From Malus domestica (taxonomy: Eukaryota; Streptophyta; Magnoliopsida; Rosales; Rosaceae): 64,000 bases of DNA. Under the pieces are notes generated by a model. The model was given only the letters and a program-made list of their open reading frames with translations. It was not told the DNA's origin and searched no databases. This document shows, one piece after another, positions 12,592-55,412 of the stretch. Where the stretch lies: assembly GCF_042453785.1 (NCBI RefSeq), contig NC_091672.1, forward strand, positions 2,175,001-2,239,000, in the 5' to 3' direction. Position 1 is the stretch's first letter, and each line of letters opens with the position of its first letter. Both the position numbers and the translations under genes were made by a program.

Positions 12592-13742
12592 GGGTAAATT
12601 ACATAGTAGCCCATCAGGTTTGAGGTCTATTGCAATCTTATACAACATCTTTAAAACATTTCACTTTCATACCTCAAGTACTATTTTATTTCAATTTCAT
12701 ACAACCGTTAGATTTTCCATCCATGGATCTGTTAAATGCTGACGTGACTGCCACATATATGACATGTGGCTGCCAAATGTCTGCCACATGGCAAATAAAA
12801 TAATTTTTTAATTTTTTTTTTAAAAACTTGAAATTGGAAGAAGAAAAAAAAAAGAAAGGGACCGAACCCAGAAGAAGAAGAGAAGAAGAAAGAGGAGGGA
12901 GGAGAAAGAAGAAGAAGAAGAAGAAAAAAGAAAGGGGTCCGAACCCAGAAGAAGGAGGAAGAAGAAGAAAGAGGAGGAGGAGGAGGAAGAAGAAGAAGAA
13001 GAAGAAGAAGAAGAAAAAGAAAAAAAAAAGGGACCGAACCCAGAAAAATGAGGAAGAAGAGAAAAAGAAAGAGGAGGAGGATGAGGAAGAAGAAGAAGAA
13101 GAAGAAAAAAAAAGAAAAAAAAAGAGAGGGACCGAACCCAGAAGGAGGAGGAAGAAAAAGAAGAGAAGAAGAAAGAGGAGGGAGGAGAAAGAAGAAGAAG
13201 AAGAAGAAAAAAAAAAAAAAAAAAGGGGTCTGAACCCAGAAGAAGGAGGAAGAAGAAGAAATAGGAGGAGGAGGAGAAGGAAGAAGAAGAAGAAGAAGAA
13301 AAAAAAAATTAAAAAAAGGGACCGAACCCAGAAAAAGGAGGAAGAAGAAGAAGAAAAAAAAAAAGGGACCGAACCCAGAAGAAGAAGGAGGAAGAAGAAG
13401 AAGAGAAGAAGAAAGAGGAGGACGAGGGAGAAGAAGAAGAAGAAAAAAAAAAAAAAAAGGTCCGAACCCAAAAGAAGAAGAAAGAGAAAACAAAAAGTGG
13501 CAGATATGTTTTTTTTTTTTAATTAAAAAATTATTTTATTTGCCACGTGGTAAACATTTGGCAGCCACGCGTCATATATGTGGCAGTCACGTCAACATTT
13601 AACAGATCCATTGATGGAAAATCTAACGGTTGTATGAAATTGAAATAAAATAGTACTTGAGGTATGAAAGTGAAATGTTTTAAAAATGTTGTATAAGATT
13701 GCAATAGACCTCAAACCTGATGGGCTACTATGTAATTTACCC
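12592..13742. mobile_element. Long-TIR Mutator-like element with purine-tract core
   Basis: It starts GGGTAAATTACATAGTAGCC and ends with its complement. The inverted arms run about 230-240 bp (to about 12830 on the left, from about 13515 on the right). The flanks are ATTTTTTTT and ATTTCTTTT, a 9-bp target duplication with one mismatch. Between the arms lies a ~0.7 kb GAA/GAG tract. Long poly-Lys/Glu and poly-Phe/Ser ORFs here are products of the tract, not genes. Confidence 0.8.
12830..13515. repeat. Degenerate tandem array, GAA/GAG with GGGACCGAACCCAGAAG punctuation
   Basis: The plus strand is almost pure purine. About eight blocks of 48-105 bp each begin with GGGACCGAACCCAGAAG or a variant with GGTCC (near 12858, 12936, 13030, 13129, 13226, 13318, 13366 and 13459), followed by GAA, GAG and A-runs of varying length. 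This is a minisatellite of complex microsatellites inside a transposable element. Confidence 0.85.
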
Positions 13743-35365: not shown

Positions 35366-38300
35366 CTAAAATAACTCAAACTCTAGGTGCTCTCCCGTCG
35401 CTGTTAACTCCAAATACTTGGTATTCTCCTGAGCAGCAGGCATGTCGGGAATTTCAAAATCACAAAACTCGGGCAGTTCTGGCGGAATGGCGCAGCGTAT
35501 CAGTGCCCAATTCAGGCCCTCAAAGAACGGATGCTGCTTGATCTCACCGGCCCCTTTCTCTGATCCCAACCGATTCTCTGGCTCCTTTACCAACAGACCT
35601 CTGATGAGATCTCGAGCCTGGAAACTAACAAGGGGGCCCTCTGGGAACCTTAGGCTCTGCAACACCACATTGGCCAACGTTTCCTCGTTGTTAATACCCT
35701 TGAACGGTGTTCTGCCATATAGAAGCTCGTAAAGGAAGATTCCGAACGTCCACCAATCAACTGCAGCTCCATGACCCTCTCCTTTGATGATCTCCGGAGC
35801 CAAGTACTCATGGGTCCCGACAAAGGAATTGGACCGCGCATCAGTAGGCTCTGCCACAAGCTGCGGCAATGATCTAACATGGGATGCAGGGTCATTTTTG
35901 GACTTCTTTGTTTTTCTAGCAGCCGGTAAAAACCTAGGGGTGAAGCATGAGACTTGACAGGAGGGTTCAATGCAGAACGGCTCAGCGCAGCTAGATTGTG
36001 TACATGGACCAGACAATCTTGCACGATCACCATCGCATGAAGGTGATTTCAATAGAGTTGGACTGACAGTGCACCTGAGAGACAGGTCAAAATCTGTGAG
36101 CATGATGTGACCATCTTCCCGGACTAGAATGTTTTCTGGTTTCAAATCCCGATAAACTACCCCAAGCATGTGCAAATACTCCAAAGCAAGGAGAACTTCC
36201 GCAACATAGAACCTGAAAGCACAAAGGTTTAAATTAGTTTTGAAATGGTAAAATTCCAGCACCTATTTAATACACAAAAAAGTACTAGATCAGAGGGACA
36301 TGAATCTAATGGTCAGTTACTCCACCGAATTATATAATGAAGTGAAGCTCTTTAGAGATGACCCGTAAAATTAAGGACAAAAAACAATTCAAGATGTCAT
36401 GTAGCAATTTCTCTCAGAGATGAGAAGGCATCCCTTACGGTGATAGCTGACTGGGAAAAACACATTAAATAAAATTTACGTAGTTGGGGTGGTGAGTGTT
36501 GGTGTAGGCGGAGGTTACAAAGGTGTATATTTTTATTTTCTTAGACAATTATCTTGTAACTAATGCTTGACTGCAGATAATGTCAAATAGCATCCAAAAC
36601 AAAATGTAAAAGTCCGATATAGGTGTTAATTCAAATATTTCTACCTTGTTGCCTCTTCAGAAAAACACCTTCCAATTTGCTTCTGCCGGAGGACATGAAG
36701 ATCTCCACCTGGGCAATACTCCATAACTAAGCACGACAAATTATCTGATGTAAATTGGGTATACAGTGTAGGGAGAAAAGGATGATCAAGCATCCTCAGT
36801 ATTTCGCTTTCAGTCTGCGCCCTAGGCATCTTCTTCCTTCTAGCCAAGAACTCATTGTCCATTACCTTTATGGCAAAAAGGCAATTCGTACTAATGAGCT
36901 CAGCAAGATATACAGTTCCTATGTCTCCACAACCAAGCTTCTTCAAAAGATTGAAGTGTCTCAAGCCCAGGGATCCATGCTGCAACCGAACATGACGGAT
37001 GGCCTCCCATCTCACATCCTTCGACATGTGAGGCTTATTGCTGCAACTAGATCCACTGGCATTGCTCTCGTCACTCAAACTCGTACTACTACTATGATCA
37101 CCTTCGCTACTTTTTGAGCTTTGGGAGAATTCCCCTTTTTCTTTTGATTTGGGGTTCTTTTTTGCTTTCATAATGTCATCTCCCCCTTTATTGCCAGTAT
37201 TACTGCTGTCGAAGGTGAAGCCTGGTTTACCTGGAATGCTGTGCCCATTATTTGAGTTTACCTCAGCAGTAAGACCGTTAAACTGGGGTGCCAAAGAACC
37301 TTGATTGGATTGTTGTCCAGCTCCTTGTATTGCACATTGACATCTCTCGCAGACCAGCTGACTTGTACAAGGATCAAAATCAGCATCAACTTCATTATAA
37401 TTACTAGAGTTGCAGGCCGCAGAACTTGACTCTTGCCTTGTCTTCTTCTTTACGATATTCCTATTCCTGCTGGCTGCTTTTACAGAGCGGAGCGCATTTC
37501 TGGATACTCTGCTTGCCGGATTTCGATTCACCGAACTCGATGAAGAAGGTACTACATGCAACTTGACTTTCCGCCCTGGTTTTGCTGCTGATAACTTATT
37601 AGCTAACTTGGTTTTGGCAGGAACATTTTGAACAAGTACTGATGTATTGCCACTTGTAGATTTAAGTTTCTCTTTCTTCACCAGCTCCGTCTTAGTTTTT
37701 GTCTGTAACATGGTTCTGGAAGGAACATTTTCAGCAAGTCCTGAAATATGATCACTTTTAGATTTATTTTTCTTCTTCTGTCCCAGTTCCGCCTTCACTG
37801 TTTGCTCCCCTACTGTCCTTAACTTGCAACTGGAAGTACTTTCATTTTGCACTATTGTGCTCCCAGAGTTGTTTTCTGTTTTCCCAATGGCAAATCGAGG
37901 AGAAGAATGTCCACTCTGGCTTGATGACTTCATCTTGGATATTTGAGGATGCTCAGACAACTCCTCACAAGAATTTGAAATGCTTTCTTCTGGCACCAGA
38001 GAGATTTCAACCATATTTCCCCTATCTTCACTTGAGGAGGCACCAGATTGACTGGATTGAACAACAACTGCATTGTATAACGTCTTGATCCTCCCAGCTT
38101 CCGAGGGTCTTGCAGGACTTGTCAATTTTGATAATCGTTTCATAGCAGCCATTTCTGATGCCTTGGTAATAGAGAGCTCTCTTAACGCCTGCTTCAGTGT
38201 CGCCGGTTCTGAATTACCAATCCCTGGTGAGCGAGACACACCCACTGTAATTGGTTTCTTTAAGGCACTTCTATTTAAAGGGCTAGTGCCTACTTGCTTT

Positions 38301-38524
38301 GAATGATCTGAACCCTTGGATGGAGTTTTGATTGCCTCGAAGAGCTTATTAATATCATCTTCTAGAGAATCCTTGTATCCCAGTTTTAGAACAGGAGGAA
38401 GCTTCCAATCTTTGTCATCTTTACCAAATCCAGAATTCAGCTGATGTATTCCGTGAAAATATTGACCTGTAGTCAGCTCATCTTTCGCTTCCACAATTTC
38501 AGATGTACCGGCGAATGAACCCAT
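35366..38524 (-). CDS. KIPK: AGCVIII protein kinase, KIPK type
   Basis: Ser/Thr kinase of the D6PK/KIPK branch (the family is linked to kinesin-like calmodulin-binding protein and polar growth). Two exons, 36645-38524 and 35366-36212, join as AG|G to give 908 aa. Residues 1 to ~510 are a Ser/Lys-rich low-complexity N-terminal region. The kinase domain starts about residue 524: Gly loop [17 protein letters not shown] lysine, catalytic YRDLKPEN, and DFD in place of DFG, diagnostic of AGCVIII. About 90 residues are inserted before the activation segment [12 protein letters not shown]. The tail ends EFELF, a PIF-like hydrophobic end. A 5' UTR intron runs about 38746-39544. No lesions seen. Confidence 0.93.
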
Positions 38525-39760
38525 TTCTAGGGTTACTCAGTCTGGTCGCGTAATCCAAATGAAGTACCAAAACGTGGAAGAGCTTAGTCCTGCAACTTTA
38601 CAATGATCAGTTCCTTGAGGAGCCTTTCAGGTAAAGATTCCGACAAGTCCCGAGCTGTGAGTAAAACTGTTCTGTGCCCGTATAAACTAAACTGCCCACA
38701 TCAAGCTATATGTCTTTTCACTTTGAAAAAGATAAAATCCGTTCCCTGAAATATCAACAGAAGTATGAAGAACATCAGTCACCCAACAGCAGATGTAGAG
38801 TAAGCAACTCTGTGACACGCAATAGGACTTCTTGAAAAGATTTCAAATTTCAAACCAACACAACATTGCGACACTACACCAATTCGAAACTTGAAAAAAC
38901 TCCAAGATGAAAAGGAATCGGACGCCTGACCTAGACTAATCCTAAATCCATTTCCCTGCCCGTGCTCACCACCCGGGCTAACCCCAAGAGCTTGGTCAAA
39001 TCATCATTTTCGTTACTTGGTTACAATGGAACGGAATCAAACATTTGACCTAGCCTAATCCTAAATCCATTTCCCCACCCGCCCTCGCCACTTGGGCTAA
39101 ACCCCATGAGCTTAGTCAAAGCAAACTTTCACCATCACACAAAAGTCATATCTTTCGACCATAGAACCGGCACGAAACAGATTTCCAATCAATTTAATGG
39201 AATGCAAATGATGCATTTTTTCCCCTAATTTCATTTTCCTCTACTTAAACAAACAAATCATTAAACTAAATGAAATCTACACCAAGTTTCCATCTTTCAA
39301 TTCTCTTCGAACTAAAGTTTAATCATTTTTTGCACATCACCAAGAAAAAAAATTCACCGACAAATTTATCCCACCATACAAATCAAACTCAATAAAAAAC
39401 AAATCCAAAAAACTAAAACATAATTCAAGAAAAAGTAAAATAAAATGAAAATGCCAAGCTTCTTTTGAGCTCCCGAAGCTCAAATCTCGAGATACGAACA
39501 CGCTCAAAAGCAAACCCAGATCGGAGAAACGCGAAGAACAATACCTGATCGAGCTTCCTCAACGGACGCAATGGGGCAAGATTCGGCGAGTAAAGTACAA
39601 CTCTGAGAAAATGGGGCGCTACAAACCCTAGAAACCTTTGGAGGTGCTGCGATGGCGAGAGAGAGGAGAAAGCGAGAAGAGGATTGATGGCGAGCTAACA
39701 AACAAAACACTGACTTCTCTTTCCGCTCCGGTTGCACTGATTATTTTGAGGGAATGTGGG
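38525..39760 (-). promoter_or_regulatory. KIPK 5' UTR with ~800-bp leader intron
   Basis: Minus strand: a non-coding exon ends GCTCGATCAG with donor GTATTG at 39544, and the acceptor ATTTCAG lies at 38746. Inside the intron, an ~80-bp block is duplicated (38930-39000 and 39050-39122, containing CTAATCCTAAATCCATTTCC and GGGCTAA ... AGCTT(G/A)GTCAAA). Confidence 0.6.
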
Positions 39761-51072: not shown

Positions 51073-51789
51073 ATTTGAATCACATCAGATACCTACAGTT
51101 GGAAAAAAAAAAAAGTCTCAGATGTGAGATTGGAATAACTCACCGAAAAACCTTAATAAAAAGGGCTTGCAAGCTTCTATACAAAACCCTAAAATTTGAC
51201 AACAACGTTTGTTGATGCATAAAACCGGAGGTCTTGGAACAACGTAAATCCGACGGTGAATCTGCAATAAATGTAAATGACACAAGATGTATCGTGGTTC
51301 ACCCCAAGGTTTGGGCTACGTCCACACTGATTGTATTTCTCTATAAGAGTTGAAAAGGGAGGGAGAGAGAGAGCTTCTCTGTGAGGATGAGAGCTCTGAG
51401 AGGGTGAGGATATGGCCTAAGGATTGCCCTCCCCTAATTATGAGGGTGAAGGGTCCTTTTATAAAATAAGGACTCCTCACTTATTACATACTTGCCCCTT
51501 CCTTTATCACATAATTACATTTAAGTCCCCCGAGTATTTGTACGAGATCTAAATACGAGGCCCTAAATATGGTATAAACAGTAGTCCCCCAAGTCTTCAG
51601 TTAAAAGAGTTTTTTGGCTGGAGACTTGAAATTCAGTCCATGTGTGGGCCGAAGTAACTAAATGTTGTCTTGAACTAATGTTCGATATGAGGCGGTGATC
51701 AATCTGAAATGATGCTCAACTAGAAGTAGCACATGCTGCGAGGCTGTTTAGCTCGTGGCTTATGTTGCCTTGGTTGGCTCGGTTTGTGG

Positions 51790-52160
51790 CGTTGAAGGTG
51801 AGGGAGTCCCTTTTATAGAATAAGGGTTTGCTCCTCAATACATAAATGATGGGCTAGAGTTGATGCTCGCGGCGAGGCGGTTGCTCAGTAGGCGGCGATG
51901 CTCTCTAATGGTGGTGAGGGAGTCATTTTTATAGAATAAGGGCTCGCTCCTCAATACAAGTGATGAGTTAGGAGTGATGCTCGCAGCGAGGTGGTTGCTC
52001 AGCTGGCGGCGTTGCTTTCTAATGAAGGTGAGGAGTCCATTTTATAAAATAAAGGCTCGCTCTTCAGTACATGAATAATGAGTGTTCTCTAATGAAAGTG
52101 AGGGAGTCACTTTTATAGAATAAGGGCTCGCTCCTTAATACATAAATAATGGGCTAAGTC
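51790..52160. repeat. Repeats in the retroelement interior, set 1
   Basis: Phrases such as GTGAGGGAGTC(C/A)(C/T)TTTTATA and AATAAGGGCTCGCTCCTCAA recur about four times, separated by GATGCTCGC(G/A)GCGAGG blocks. No coding frame. Confidence 0.7.
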
Positions 52161-52324
52161 CCCTAAGTATTTTTCATGAGGCCCAATTGAGGCCTAATAT
52201 ATGGTACATAATGTAGTCCCCCAAGTCTTCGGTCAATAGAGTCTGTTGGCTGGAAACTTCAAATTGAATCCATGTATAGGCCGAATTGGCGGTTGTTCGG
52301 ATGCGGTATTTGTATACCCTGCAC

Positions 52325-52480
52325 TGAAGCTTTATAGGTGAAGCTTTGCAAGTGAAGCTTTGAAGCTAGAGCTCTGTAAATGAAGCTTTCGAAGCTAGAG
52401 CTTTTGTAAATGAAGTTTTTGAAGCTAGAGCTCTGTAAATGAAACTTTTGAAGTTAGAGAGCTCTGTAAATGAAGTTTTT
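52325..52480. repeat. Tandem GAAGCTAGAGCTCTGTAAAT array
   Basis: Four to five ~37-bp units (TGAAGCTTTTGAAGCTAGAG with CTCTGTAAA), imperfect, in the retroelement interior. Confidence 0.8.
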
Positions 52481-52487
52481 GGAGCTA

Positions 52488-52700
52488 ATTGACATGAGTG
52501 ATACTCATGAATGTTTATGTTGATTGACATGAGTGATGCTCATGGATGTTGTCATGAGTGATGCTCATGAATGTTAACATGAGTGATGCTCATGAATGTT
52601 AACATGAATGATGATCATGAATGTTTATATATGATTGTCATAAGTGATGTTCATGAATGTTTATGTATGAATGACATGAGTAATGCTCATGTATAATTTA
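52488..52700. repeat. Tandem CATGAGTGATGCTCATGAAT array
   Basis: About eight units of roughly 25-30 bp built on the small palindrome ATGAGTGATGCTCAT. Each unit can form a tiny hairpin. Confidence 0.85.
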
Positions 52701-52704
52701 GAGT

Positions 52705-53035
52705 ACTGGGCGTACTTTTGATCACTAGGTTGGTGGCATGAAGGAGAGTACGAGTTGTACATTTTATCACCTGGTTGGTGGCATGAATGACTAGTTGCCA
52801 AAACGGGTTGTACATTTCATCACCTGGTTGGTGGCAGGAATGGCTAGTTGCCAAATGATATTAGAGTACGGATTGTACATTTCATCACCTGGTTGGTGGT
52901 AATAGCGGCGGGTTGCCGAATAATTTTGGAGTACTGGACGTACTTTTAATCACCTGGTTGGTGGAATATCGGCAGGTTGCCGAATAATTGTGGAGTACTG
53001 GGCGTACTTTGGATTGCCTGGTTGGATCTATTTTG
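52705..53035. repeat. Tandem ATCACCTGGTTGGTGGCA array
   Basis: Five or six units of ~60-75 bp with TGTACATTT(C/T)ATCACCTGG, TTGGTGG and GTTGCC(A/G)AA. Adjacent to the previous array, still in the interior of the element. Confidence 0.85.
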
Positions 53036-53404
53036 GGCTTATGGGCATTCGCCCTCTACACAACTTTCCAGCCCATTTATTTTGGGTTTTTTTTTTTTTT
53101 TTTTACCCTCTGATAGGGTTTATACAGATGTCTCCGAAAGATAAGAAAAATAATTTACATCATTCAGAAATAAGAAAAGCAAATCACATCTGTCTGGTGG
53201 GGTGTTTATTCCTTGCTTTTGCAGTGTCCCCATGTGCCTCTCTTTTGCTTTCTGCTTTTTCTCGATTTTTTCTGCTTTGCTTTTGCTTTCTTTCTTTTCT
53301 CTTTTGCTTTCTCTTTTTCTCCTTTCCACTGTTGTCTCTTCACCTGGTAGACAAAAGAAATCATAATAATAAGCTTATCTTTTGCTTTTCTTCTTTGCAG
53401 GTTT

Positions 53405-54131
53405 ACATCATGGGTGAGCAGTGGTGGTGGTGCGACACGTGCGACGAAACCTTGGGGATATCCGACTGCTTAGCTGGGTCTCCTCAAACCACATTTGGCC
53501 TCGTCTCTCTCGTCAGTGATGCTAAAAATGCACTGATGGACTGGAGTTGCTGCTTGTGTCGCTCCTCCTCAGAGATGGTGACGGAAAAGGCAACACCCTG
53601 AATGCCCTTGCTAGGGTGGTGGGTGCCGACTTCTTCTTCTGCAGCGAGTGGAGCTCGTCGATCGTCTGAGCCTTCACAGGTGGTGGGCGACGGAGACGTC
53701 ATGGCTCCGGCGAGTAGCTGGGAGAAGGACTTGCAGTCGTTGCCATCGTCGGATAAGAAGTTAGAGACGAGAGTCATGGGTTCGGGGCAGAAGCGGAAGG
53801 GTCTTGGAACCAGAGGGGATTTGCAGTTAGAACTGATGGCCATAGCAGTATCTCGAACCTGAACTGGCAAGCCATATTCAAGATCCAAAAGGCAAACTTG
53901 ACAAACGTTTTTCAACTTACTGCACGTCTGGCAAATCTCTGACTTCTTAAATCGCGCATCACGACCAGGCCTCCACCTGAAAACTGTGAACGGACGTGTG
54001 CAAATCTTGCACTCCTTGTCATAATCAGCTCGTGTCATCCGGACGTAGGGATTGTCTCCCAAGCATGACTCGCAGATGATGGGAAAATCTGATCGTTCCC
54101 AACCATCTGCCTCCATATTCCTAAGCAACAT
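53405..54131 (-). CDS. Chimeric captured ORF: RBM22-type + WRKY + PEP carboxykinase pieces
   Basis: One 215-codon frame (54131 to 53484, with stop). Residues 1-100 match the N-terminal zinc-binding part of RBM22/Slt11-type splicing factors ([47 protein letters not shown]). Residues ~105-150 match the N-terminal Ser/Pro region of group-I WRKY factors of the WRKY3/4 type ([24 protein letters not shown]). From ~152 the DNA is the 5' coding part of PEP carboxykinase: first out of frame ([18 protein letters not shown] in the +1 frame), then in frame ([24 protein letters not shown]), then past a stop to 53405 ([13 protein letters not shown]). The PEPCK catalytic core, WRKY domain and RRM are all absent. 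Expression is unknown; more likely a captured non-functional chimera than a working gene. Confidence 0.8.
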
Positions 54132-55268
54132 GTATGCAATATTACCTGGAGATGAGTTTGGCTAATTGCTGTCGGCGACGCGACGGTCAGAAGTGACTAG
54201 AGGTTGAAGCTGGAGGTCGACGGCGGCTACGTTTGAGGATGAAGAGTGCGAGCTGAAGTGCGAGGGAAACACAATTTTACAGGTGCGAGCAAGGAGATCA
54301 TCAATGGCGGATGAACTTCACAGACCAAAACTTAATTCCTCTTTCTCTCTTTTGCTGTGCCTTTTGGTCAGTTCCACCATACTATCCCAGAGGTTTCTTT
54401 GTAAGGAGACCTCCATTTATGAGACAGATTCTGATTATGGCTCTAGAATTTAGAATTTGGAGTGGACTGGTGAGCGTGGAGAGAAAGAGAAAGGTTACTG
54501 GGTTTCTGAGTTTTTTTTTTTGTGATTTTGCAGATTCATGCTGGAGGTGAAAAATTGAAAGAGAACCGACATAGTTTTTCGTGTCGATTCCTACAGACGA
54601 CACCAAATGTTGATGCACAAAACCAGAGGTCTTGGAACAACGTAAATCCGACCGTGAATATGCAAGAAATGTAAGTGACACAAGATGTATCGTGGTTCAC
54701 CCCAAGGTTTGGGCTACGTCCACACTGATTGTATTTCTCTGTAAGAGTTGAAGATGGAGAGAGAGAGAGAGCTTCTCTGTGAGGATGAGAGTTCTGAGAG
54801 GGTGAGGATATGGCCTAAGGATTGCCCTCCCCTAATTATGAGGGTGAGGGGTCCTTTTATAGAATAAGGACTTATCATTTATTACATATTTGCCCATTCC
54901 TTTATCACATAATTACAATAAAGTCCCCAAGTATTTGTACGAGATCTAAATACGAGGCCCTAAATATGGTATAAACAACGTTTAATATCATTATCGCGTT
55001 TGGTGGTCATTCTTCAAATCAAACTCCATTAACCATTTCAATATCAGATTCAATATATCCTAACTTCTGGGAGACATGATTTCCAATTATCAGTTAGCAA
55101 GATAAACAAACAGAGTATTCCGGCTAACCCACATCAAATAAGAAATATGAATTAAGAATGTCAAAACACGCAACGTAGATTCAAAAATCTCCGATTGCAT
55201 CAGAGTAAGCCGATTCAAAGAGATCAAATTGCGAAAGAATGGAATTGAAGGAGGATTGGTTGACTTAC

Positions 55269-55412
55269 AACATTGCCGAGAGTGACGACGTTAAGTAAAC
55301 TGTAAGCCCTTCAAGAGGAGGTTGTGTTGTTGTCAACATCTTCGTCGACAAGTAAAGTGGCGTCTTGCCACATGAAGTCTGATAGCTACAACAACTCTTC
55401 GATCGCCTCCAT
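55269..55412 (-). pseudogene. DRP2-type dynamin gene, exon 1 pseudogene
   Basis: The frame from ATG at 55412 gives MEAIEELL*LSDFM, then LLVDEDVDNNTTSS*RAYS and LLNVVTLGNV, ending at a GTAAGT donor. This is the start of plant dynamin-related protein 2 (MEAIEEL.QLSDSM.QA through LNVVALGNV, where the P-loop exon GAGKS should follow). Stops replace codons 9 and 36. No P-loop exon was found downstream; the LTR retrotransposon lies ~290 bp further along the putative intron. Confidence 0.75.

Follow-up and report, generated by a model that had tools for sequence, protein, structure and literature searches.

Family-level database searches confirm the presence of pieces of three unrelated host genes between the LTRs of a single 3,768 bp (3.77 kb) element in apple (Malus domestica), an arrangement of the kind described for maize Bs1. 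The element lies in the window, the stretch of 64,000 nucleotides of apple DNA that was analysed and whose positions are used throughout, and its sense strand is the minus strand. The pieces come from RBM22, a WRKY3/4-type gene and ATP-PEP carboxykinase (PEPCK), and one open frame runs through all three. The favoured history, held at a probability of about 0.6, is that the element took three 5'-proximal host pieces by template switching of reverse transcriptase, spread in trans and is now decaying. The established portion of this history comprises the element structure, the three donor families and a junction shared with other Malus models.

The 5' LTR (370 bp, 54608-54977, minus strand) and the 3' LTR (371 bp, 51210-51580, minus strand) share 94% identity and TG..CA termini, and the element is flanked by 5-bp direct matches, ACGTT, at 51205-51209 and 54978-54982; the matched LTRs and target site duplication (TSD) given in the preliminary description are thus borne out. 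Two bases past the 5' LTR, a stretch that starts with TGG (TGGTGTCGTCTGTAGGAA, 54588-54605, minus strand) is putatively assigned as a primer binding site (PBS), and a stretch resembling a polypurine tract (PPT; GAAGACTTGGGGGACTAC, 51581-51598, minus strand), judged by eye, abuts the 3' LTR. Paired direct LTRs with TG..CA ends, a TSD of 4-6 bp and a PPT before the 3' LTR are the features of an LTR retrotransposon. Over the 370 sites compared, the LTR pair shows 21 differences (K2P 0.059). With the rate applied to Rosaceae LTRs (1.3e-8 per site and year; PMC5659011) this gives an insertion age of 2.3 My, and slower rates raise it to 4 to 12 My; the window copy would have been inserted some million years ago. 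Assignment to the Rosaceae TGTT/AACA LTR families was rejected: as described in that source, their LTRs end TG..TT or AA..CA, and those of the apple element end TG..CA (PMC5659011). No copies of the element were found as DNA in IMG/VR, where an LTR match in one contig (L001) spans 18 bases only, with nothing beyond.

No gag or pol domain was detected in the main frame, for which Pfam gives STL11_N only, nor in 10 further frames of the element, drawn from those of 60 aa or more with a few of the 60-70 aa class set aside; the sole item from the scan of these 10 frames is a sub-threshold bZIP match (E 0.0042). An autonomous element would carry both gag and pol domains, and the apple element is best read as a non-autonomous LTR retrotransposon. 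Several kinds of short tandem repeat array, with periods from 13 to 114, occupy 51793-53025 on its 3' side, and one repeat unit resembles a segment of the LTR. The gap that separates the RBM22 piece from the 5' LTR contains a 49-aa antisense frame (MADELHRP..., 54304-54450, plus strand) with the look of a signal peptide. This frame has no match in Pfam (E 1) or PDB (E 10), and it could represent a candidate fourth captured fragment. No tRNAs and no RNA families at gathering score were detected within the window.

The fused frame is open for 225 codons from stop to stop (53487-54161, minus strand), is closed by a TGA at 53484-53486, and offers 215 codons from the ATG at 54131, the single minus-strand frame of the preliminary description. 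That description also had the translation change identity twice, from RBM22 to WRKY3/4 to PEPCK. Protein searches of the pieces returned matches to the RBM22, WRKY and PEPCK families, each recovered from the databases. The proposed families stand, and the limits of the pieces required correction at both ends: RBM22 similarity begins upstream of the ATG, at 54173, and PEPCK similarity outruns the stop.

The RBM22/STL11 piece (53826-54173, minus strand; tblastn, Pfam) consists of some 5' untranslated sequence followed by codons 1-105. Apricot RBM22 (P0008) aligns with the window by tblastn at 89% over 120 aa (54173-53814), running from untranslated into coding sequence. On the open frame, Pfam STL11_N scores E 1.6e-29, and 10 distinct PDB sequences match (best E 7.3e-86), named RBM22, cwf5 and SLT11, with one putative pre-mRNA splicing protein. 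The native RBM22 start has changed from ATG to ATT at 54140, and the next in-frame ATG is the one at 54131. All eight cysteines of the piece, which presumably bind zinc, are present in the window copy.

Between the RBM22 and WRKY pieces lies a linker of about 33 nt (53793-53825, minus strand), to which the donor alignments to the window assign no donor match. The WRKY3/4 N-terminal piece (53685-53792, minus strand) spans 36 codons in native frame and was located by protein search and alignment. A 50-residue query returned 151 proteins at E up to 10, the two best being WRKY3-type, one from Malus baccata (3.2e-10) and one from Pyrus (7.1e-9); among the 120 of these 151 matches that were listed, by eye, P0245 and P0353 are without the WRKY label PF03106. 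Identity to P0242 (Malus baccata) and P0243 (Pyrus) is 86% over 36 aa. Because the piece precedes the WRKY domains, no DNA-binding domain was captured.

The third piece is the N-terminus of PEPCK (53412-53683, minus strand), and the remainder of the enzyme is absent. A combined WRKY and PEPCK query matched 295 proteins at E up to 0.01, best peach P0122 (E 3.2e-36); the 120 listed carry PF01293, as judged by eye, and include no WRKY protein. Alignment to P0122 yields 23 of 23 identical residues at 53683-53615, one frame off the open frame, and then 78% over 68 aa at 53615-53412, in the open frame and running through the TGA that ends it; the frames change at 53615, exactly the pattern (first one frame off, later in frame) proposed earlier. 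A Malus PEPCK paralogue, P0149, shows lower similarity (91% of 22 aa and 68% of 63 aa), and the apple gene nearest P0122 may belong to the 62-sequence P0122 cluster.

The openness of the frame is unremarkable. About 184 of its 225 codons (105 RBM22, 36 WRKY and 43 PEPCK) are in native frame, and it is mostly open by inheritance, since RBM22, WRKY and the second PEPCK part read in their own frames. Among the 41 remaining codons, 40 were shuffled (6 upstream, 11 in the linker and 23 in the off-frame PEPCK part), and they stayed open in 30% of 20,000 shuffles; the WRKY piece being in phase adds a further factor of one third. This is no more than chance gives, and openness alone is no sign of selection. 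Of the earlier suggestion that the frame was kept open by chance or selection, the selection half draws no support from the protein counts given below.

The fusion also occurs in other Malus sequences. A search with the frame's protein returned 1,105 matches, and among the best 120, which were examined, at least seven Malus models carry it (P0002-P0007 and P0009, the last from Malus baccata). Every one of these seven was included in an alignment. The best match in a set of about 5.8 billion proteins is the 210-aa Malus domestica P0002, which equals frame residues 16-225 except for N223K. Apple gene sets list such fused frames as proteins, P0006 under the name zinc finger CCCH. In the 120 listed matches, words from WRKY or PEPCK occur in six of the seven fusion models and in no other protein; P0007 was missed, its WRKY words being mutated. 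Three models (P0002, P0003, P0004) contain all three pieces, P0005 and P0007 contain RBM22 and WRKY and end inside WRKY, and P0006 and P0009 join RBM22 to PEPCK in the native PEPCK frame without WRKY. Since the window has a GT (53858) and an AG (53672) at the borders of the stretch skipped in P0006 and P0009, in all likelihood these two models remove by splicing a WRKY piece still present in their DNA; removal of this 187-nt GT..AG interval (53672-53858, minus strand) would join RBM22 to PEPCK in native frame. True absence of WRKY from their DNA is the less probable reading. P0004 skips part of RBM22, and that skip too is bounded by sites that read GT and AG in the window.

The RBM22-WRKY junction is common to five of the seven models (P0002-P0005 and P0007); in two of the five, identity to the open frame is as low as 80-82%. 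Shared non-native differences divide the sequences into two groups. The first contains the window frame (P0001) with P0002, P0003, P0004 and P0009, united by the PEPCK frameshift region and by H3Y in the models that cover that residue; the second contains P0005-P0007 (R4S, R7K, S17L). Because the junction residues are common to both groups, the join arose once, before the known copies diverged, and was then copied. No clear case of an intermediate with fewer donors was seen among the seven Malus models. Of the serial transduction claimed at the outset, the capture of three pieces is upheld; as to its serial character, the missing intermediate and the junction shared by five of seven models would fit one event as well as several.

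In the favoured history, the element would have picked up the RBM22, WRKY3/4-type and PEPCK pieces in its own sense orientation as reverse transcriptase switched, presumably inside a virus-like particle, between element RNA and host transcripts. The fused block would have been left between PBS and PPT and then copied along with the element, with the copying enzymes probably supplied in trans; the other Malus copies would have spread in the same element, and the window copy would now be a decaying passenger, probably without function. The orientation of the three pieces is that of the element, the usual state of transduced sequences in plants (PMC7264820). An A18 tract in element sense (53087-53104, minus strand, found by sequence inspection) lies 3' of the captured block and is preceded by an AT-rich, UTR-like stretch; it could be a simple repeat, and a second run, A11, is present at 54511-54521.

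RNA-templated capture is likely but unproven, since no donor intron is known to fall within any of the captured stretches. The element structure, the common orientation and the A18 tract speak for this part of the earlier proposal, and the PEPCK end, which may enter an intron, speaks against it. Directly 3' of the PEPCK piece is an intron-like stretch of 63 nt (53344-53406, minus strand), GTAAAC...TTTCTTTTGTCTACCAG, ending CTACCAG, which may be PEPCK intron 1. Malus PEPCK models P0144 and P0212 diverge from other PEPCKs after LFGV, near which exon 1 likely ends, and the captured PEPCK stops within a few codons of that break, just short of it, before GTAAAC. Because PEPCK ends near a likely exon end and GTAAAC follows, unspliced RNA or DNA would suit as template better than mature mRNA. 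The RBM22 piece offers no guidance here: the RBM22 models among the matches listed show, by eye, no break inside the captured region, the first breaks noticed being after KSD (P0012) and after EEHDRR/K (P0010, P0014, P0015), and the lack of introns in the piece is uninformative because those models are unbroken across the captured codons.

It is possible, but rather unlikely, that a host gene or transcript with this fused make-up (RBM22 5' end, WRKY, PEPCK, 3' UTR and poly(A)) already existed and was captured whole in one step. The block does read like one message, from RBM22 5' untranslated sequence and start to the UTR-like sequence and A18, and a single step would fit the want of any clear fewer-donor intermediate among the seven models; weakly against it, WRKY and PEPCK words appear only in Malus models among the 120 of 1,105 matches listed.

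Somewhat less probable is capture from DNA, through a Pack-type DNA transposon or through break repair within the element, with later carriage by the LTR element. Pack-MULEs have a capture bias towards GC-rich, gene-5'-proximal sequence. All three apple pieces are gene-5'-proximal, GC is high in WRKY (0.58) and PEPCK (0.56), with 0.46 in the RBM22 coding piece and 0.37 in the window, and the possible intron sequence 3' of PEPCK would also be expected from DNA. Against this stand the single orientation of all three pieces, which is that of the element, and the lack of convincing inverted repeats on either side of the block: the 24 pairs of inverted repeats of at least 14 nt in the element include none convincing as terminal inverted repeats (TIRs), and the pairs reaching across the block are short and imperfect. 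A Pack-type DNA transposon bracket was rejected on this ground.

Template switching followed by decay, the preferred reading, also fits the condition of the window copy, in which the native start is gone and PEPCK has acquired a frameshift and a stop. Six distinct sequences retain the greater part of the RBM22 piece (P0001/P0002, P0003, P0005, P0006, P0007 and P0009), and two of these have lost conserved cysteines, P0003 two of the eight and P0005 one. Protein-difference counts of RBM22, WRKY and the rest give no signal of selection, and they do not exclude selection either. The window copy differs from native sequence at 5 of 105 RBM22 residues (apricot) versus 5 of 36 WRKY residues (Malus baccata), a contrast with Fisher p 0.12; for the second PEPCK part the count against peach is 11 of 43. 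The references in these counts are not the apple donors themselves, and donor genes differ in their rates of evolution. A narrower count (1 of 96 for RBM22 residues 10-105, against 5 of 36, p 0.006) was dropped in favour of the whole-piece value, its range having been chosen post hoc. Residues at which P0001 stands alone against P0003 and P0004 number 1 of 54 in RBM22 and, outside it, 5 of 113 (p 0.67), or 4 of 113 (p 1.0) without residue 133, where P0001 is native.

These observations bear on two further readings. It is very improbable that the element founded a Malus RBM22-WRKY-PEPCK family, some members of which would be transcribed and alternatively spliced, by way of the 187-nt interval, into an RBM22 zinc finger with a PEPCK tail. 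About as improbable is a functional new gene, an RBM22-PEPCK protein made by splicing out WRKY: apple protein models exist (the P0002 cluster has 6 member sequences and 14 contigs, that of P0006 has 2 and 21) and the post hoc RBM22 range is nearly native, but the listed proteins are predicted gene models, neither difference count is significant, and the start, frame, stop and cysteine changes tell against it.

Elsewhere in the window, a DRP2 (dynamin-2A/B)-like exon 1 remnant with two stops lies at 55269-55412 (minus strand), about 290 bp beyond the 5' LTR; an approximate DRP2 probe found no other match in the window at E 5. Two long minus-strand frames, 36641-38536 and 35366-36262, were named by eye as a putative AGC-type plant protein kinase. 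A low-complexity stretch at 12686-13535, open in several frames with E/K-rich and S/F/L-rich readings, is unlikely to be a gene.

Fusion of three donors within an LTR element is rare but of a known kind, maize Bs1 being the best-known case. Bs1, too, is an LTR element; it combines pieces taken from three different host genes, none of them a full ORF, and has a hybrid reading frame (PMC13317346). Its donors are H+-ATPase, xylan endohydrolase and beta-1,3-glucanase (PMC13317346, on Elrouby and Bureau 2001, 2010), and it is reported to be transcribed and translated (PMC13317346). The apple element resembles Bs1 in holding three host-gene pieces and a hybrid frame between LTRs, and differs in its donors (RBM22, WRKY3/4-type and PEPCK) and in being known from sequence alone, whereas transcription and translation are reported for Bs1. 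Bs1 keeps gag sequence; in the apple element no gag domain was found in the main frame or the 10 further frames. The preliminary description had likened the capture to that of Pack-type elements. The likeness holds for the presence of several host fragments in one mobile element, as in Pack-MULEs, Pack-CACTA and Helitrons, but the apple element lacks convincing bracketing TIRs and ends in LTRs with a 5-bp TSD, and Bs1 is the closer precedent. With TRIM and LARD elements it shares LTRs, PBS-like and PPT-like sites, internal tandem repeats and no detected gag or pol, and differs in carrying joined host gene pieces in its internal region; at 3.77 kb it falls between the two size classes. Counts of LTR-captured genes stand at 672 for rice, 1,343 for sorghum and 424 for maize (PMC3726574). 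These too are host gene sequences inside LTR elements that spread with the element, but the available part of that source describes the genes singly, with no three-donor single-frame fusion (PMC3726574). No paper on the apple element was found in literature that covers subscription journals thinly.

In the literature sampled, and as far as the available part of the source goes, no LTR element other than Bs1 is credited with three host-gene pieces (PMC13317346), and the apple element adds a dicot case. For annotators, the listing of fused frames as proteins in apple gene sets is a warning. If the spliced RBM22-PEPCK family were real, the LTR element would be a gene-fusion workshop whose products the host retains. 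With two diverged groups of copies to compare, one could read off in what order the pieces were captured, how they were joined and whether selection acted.
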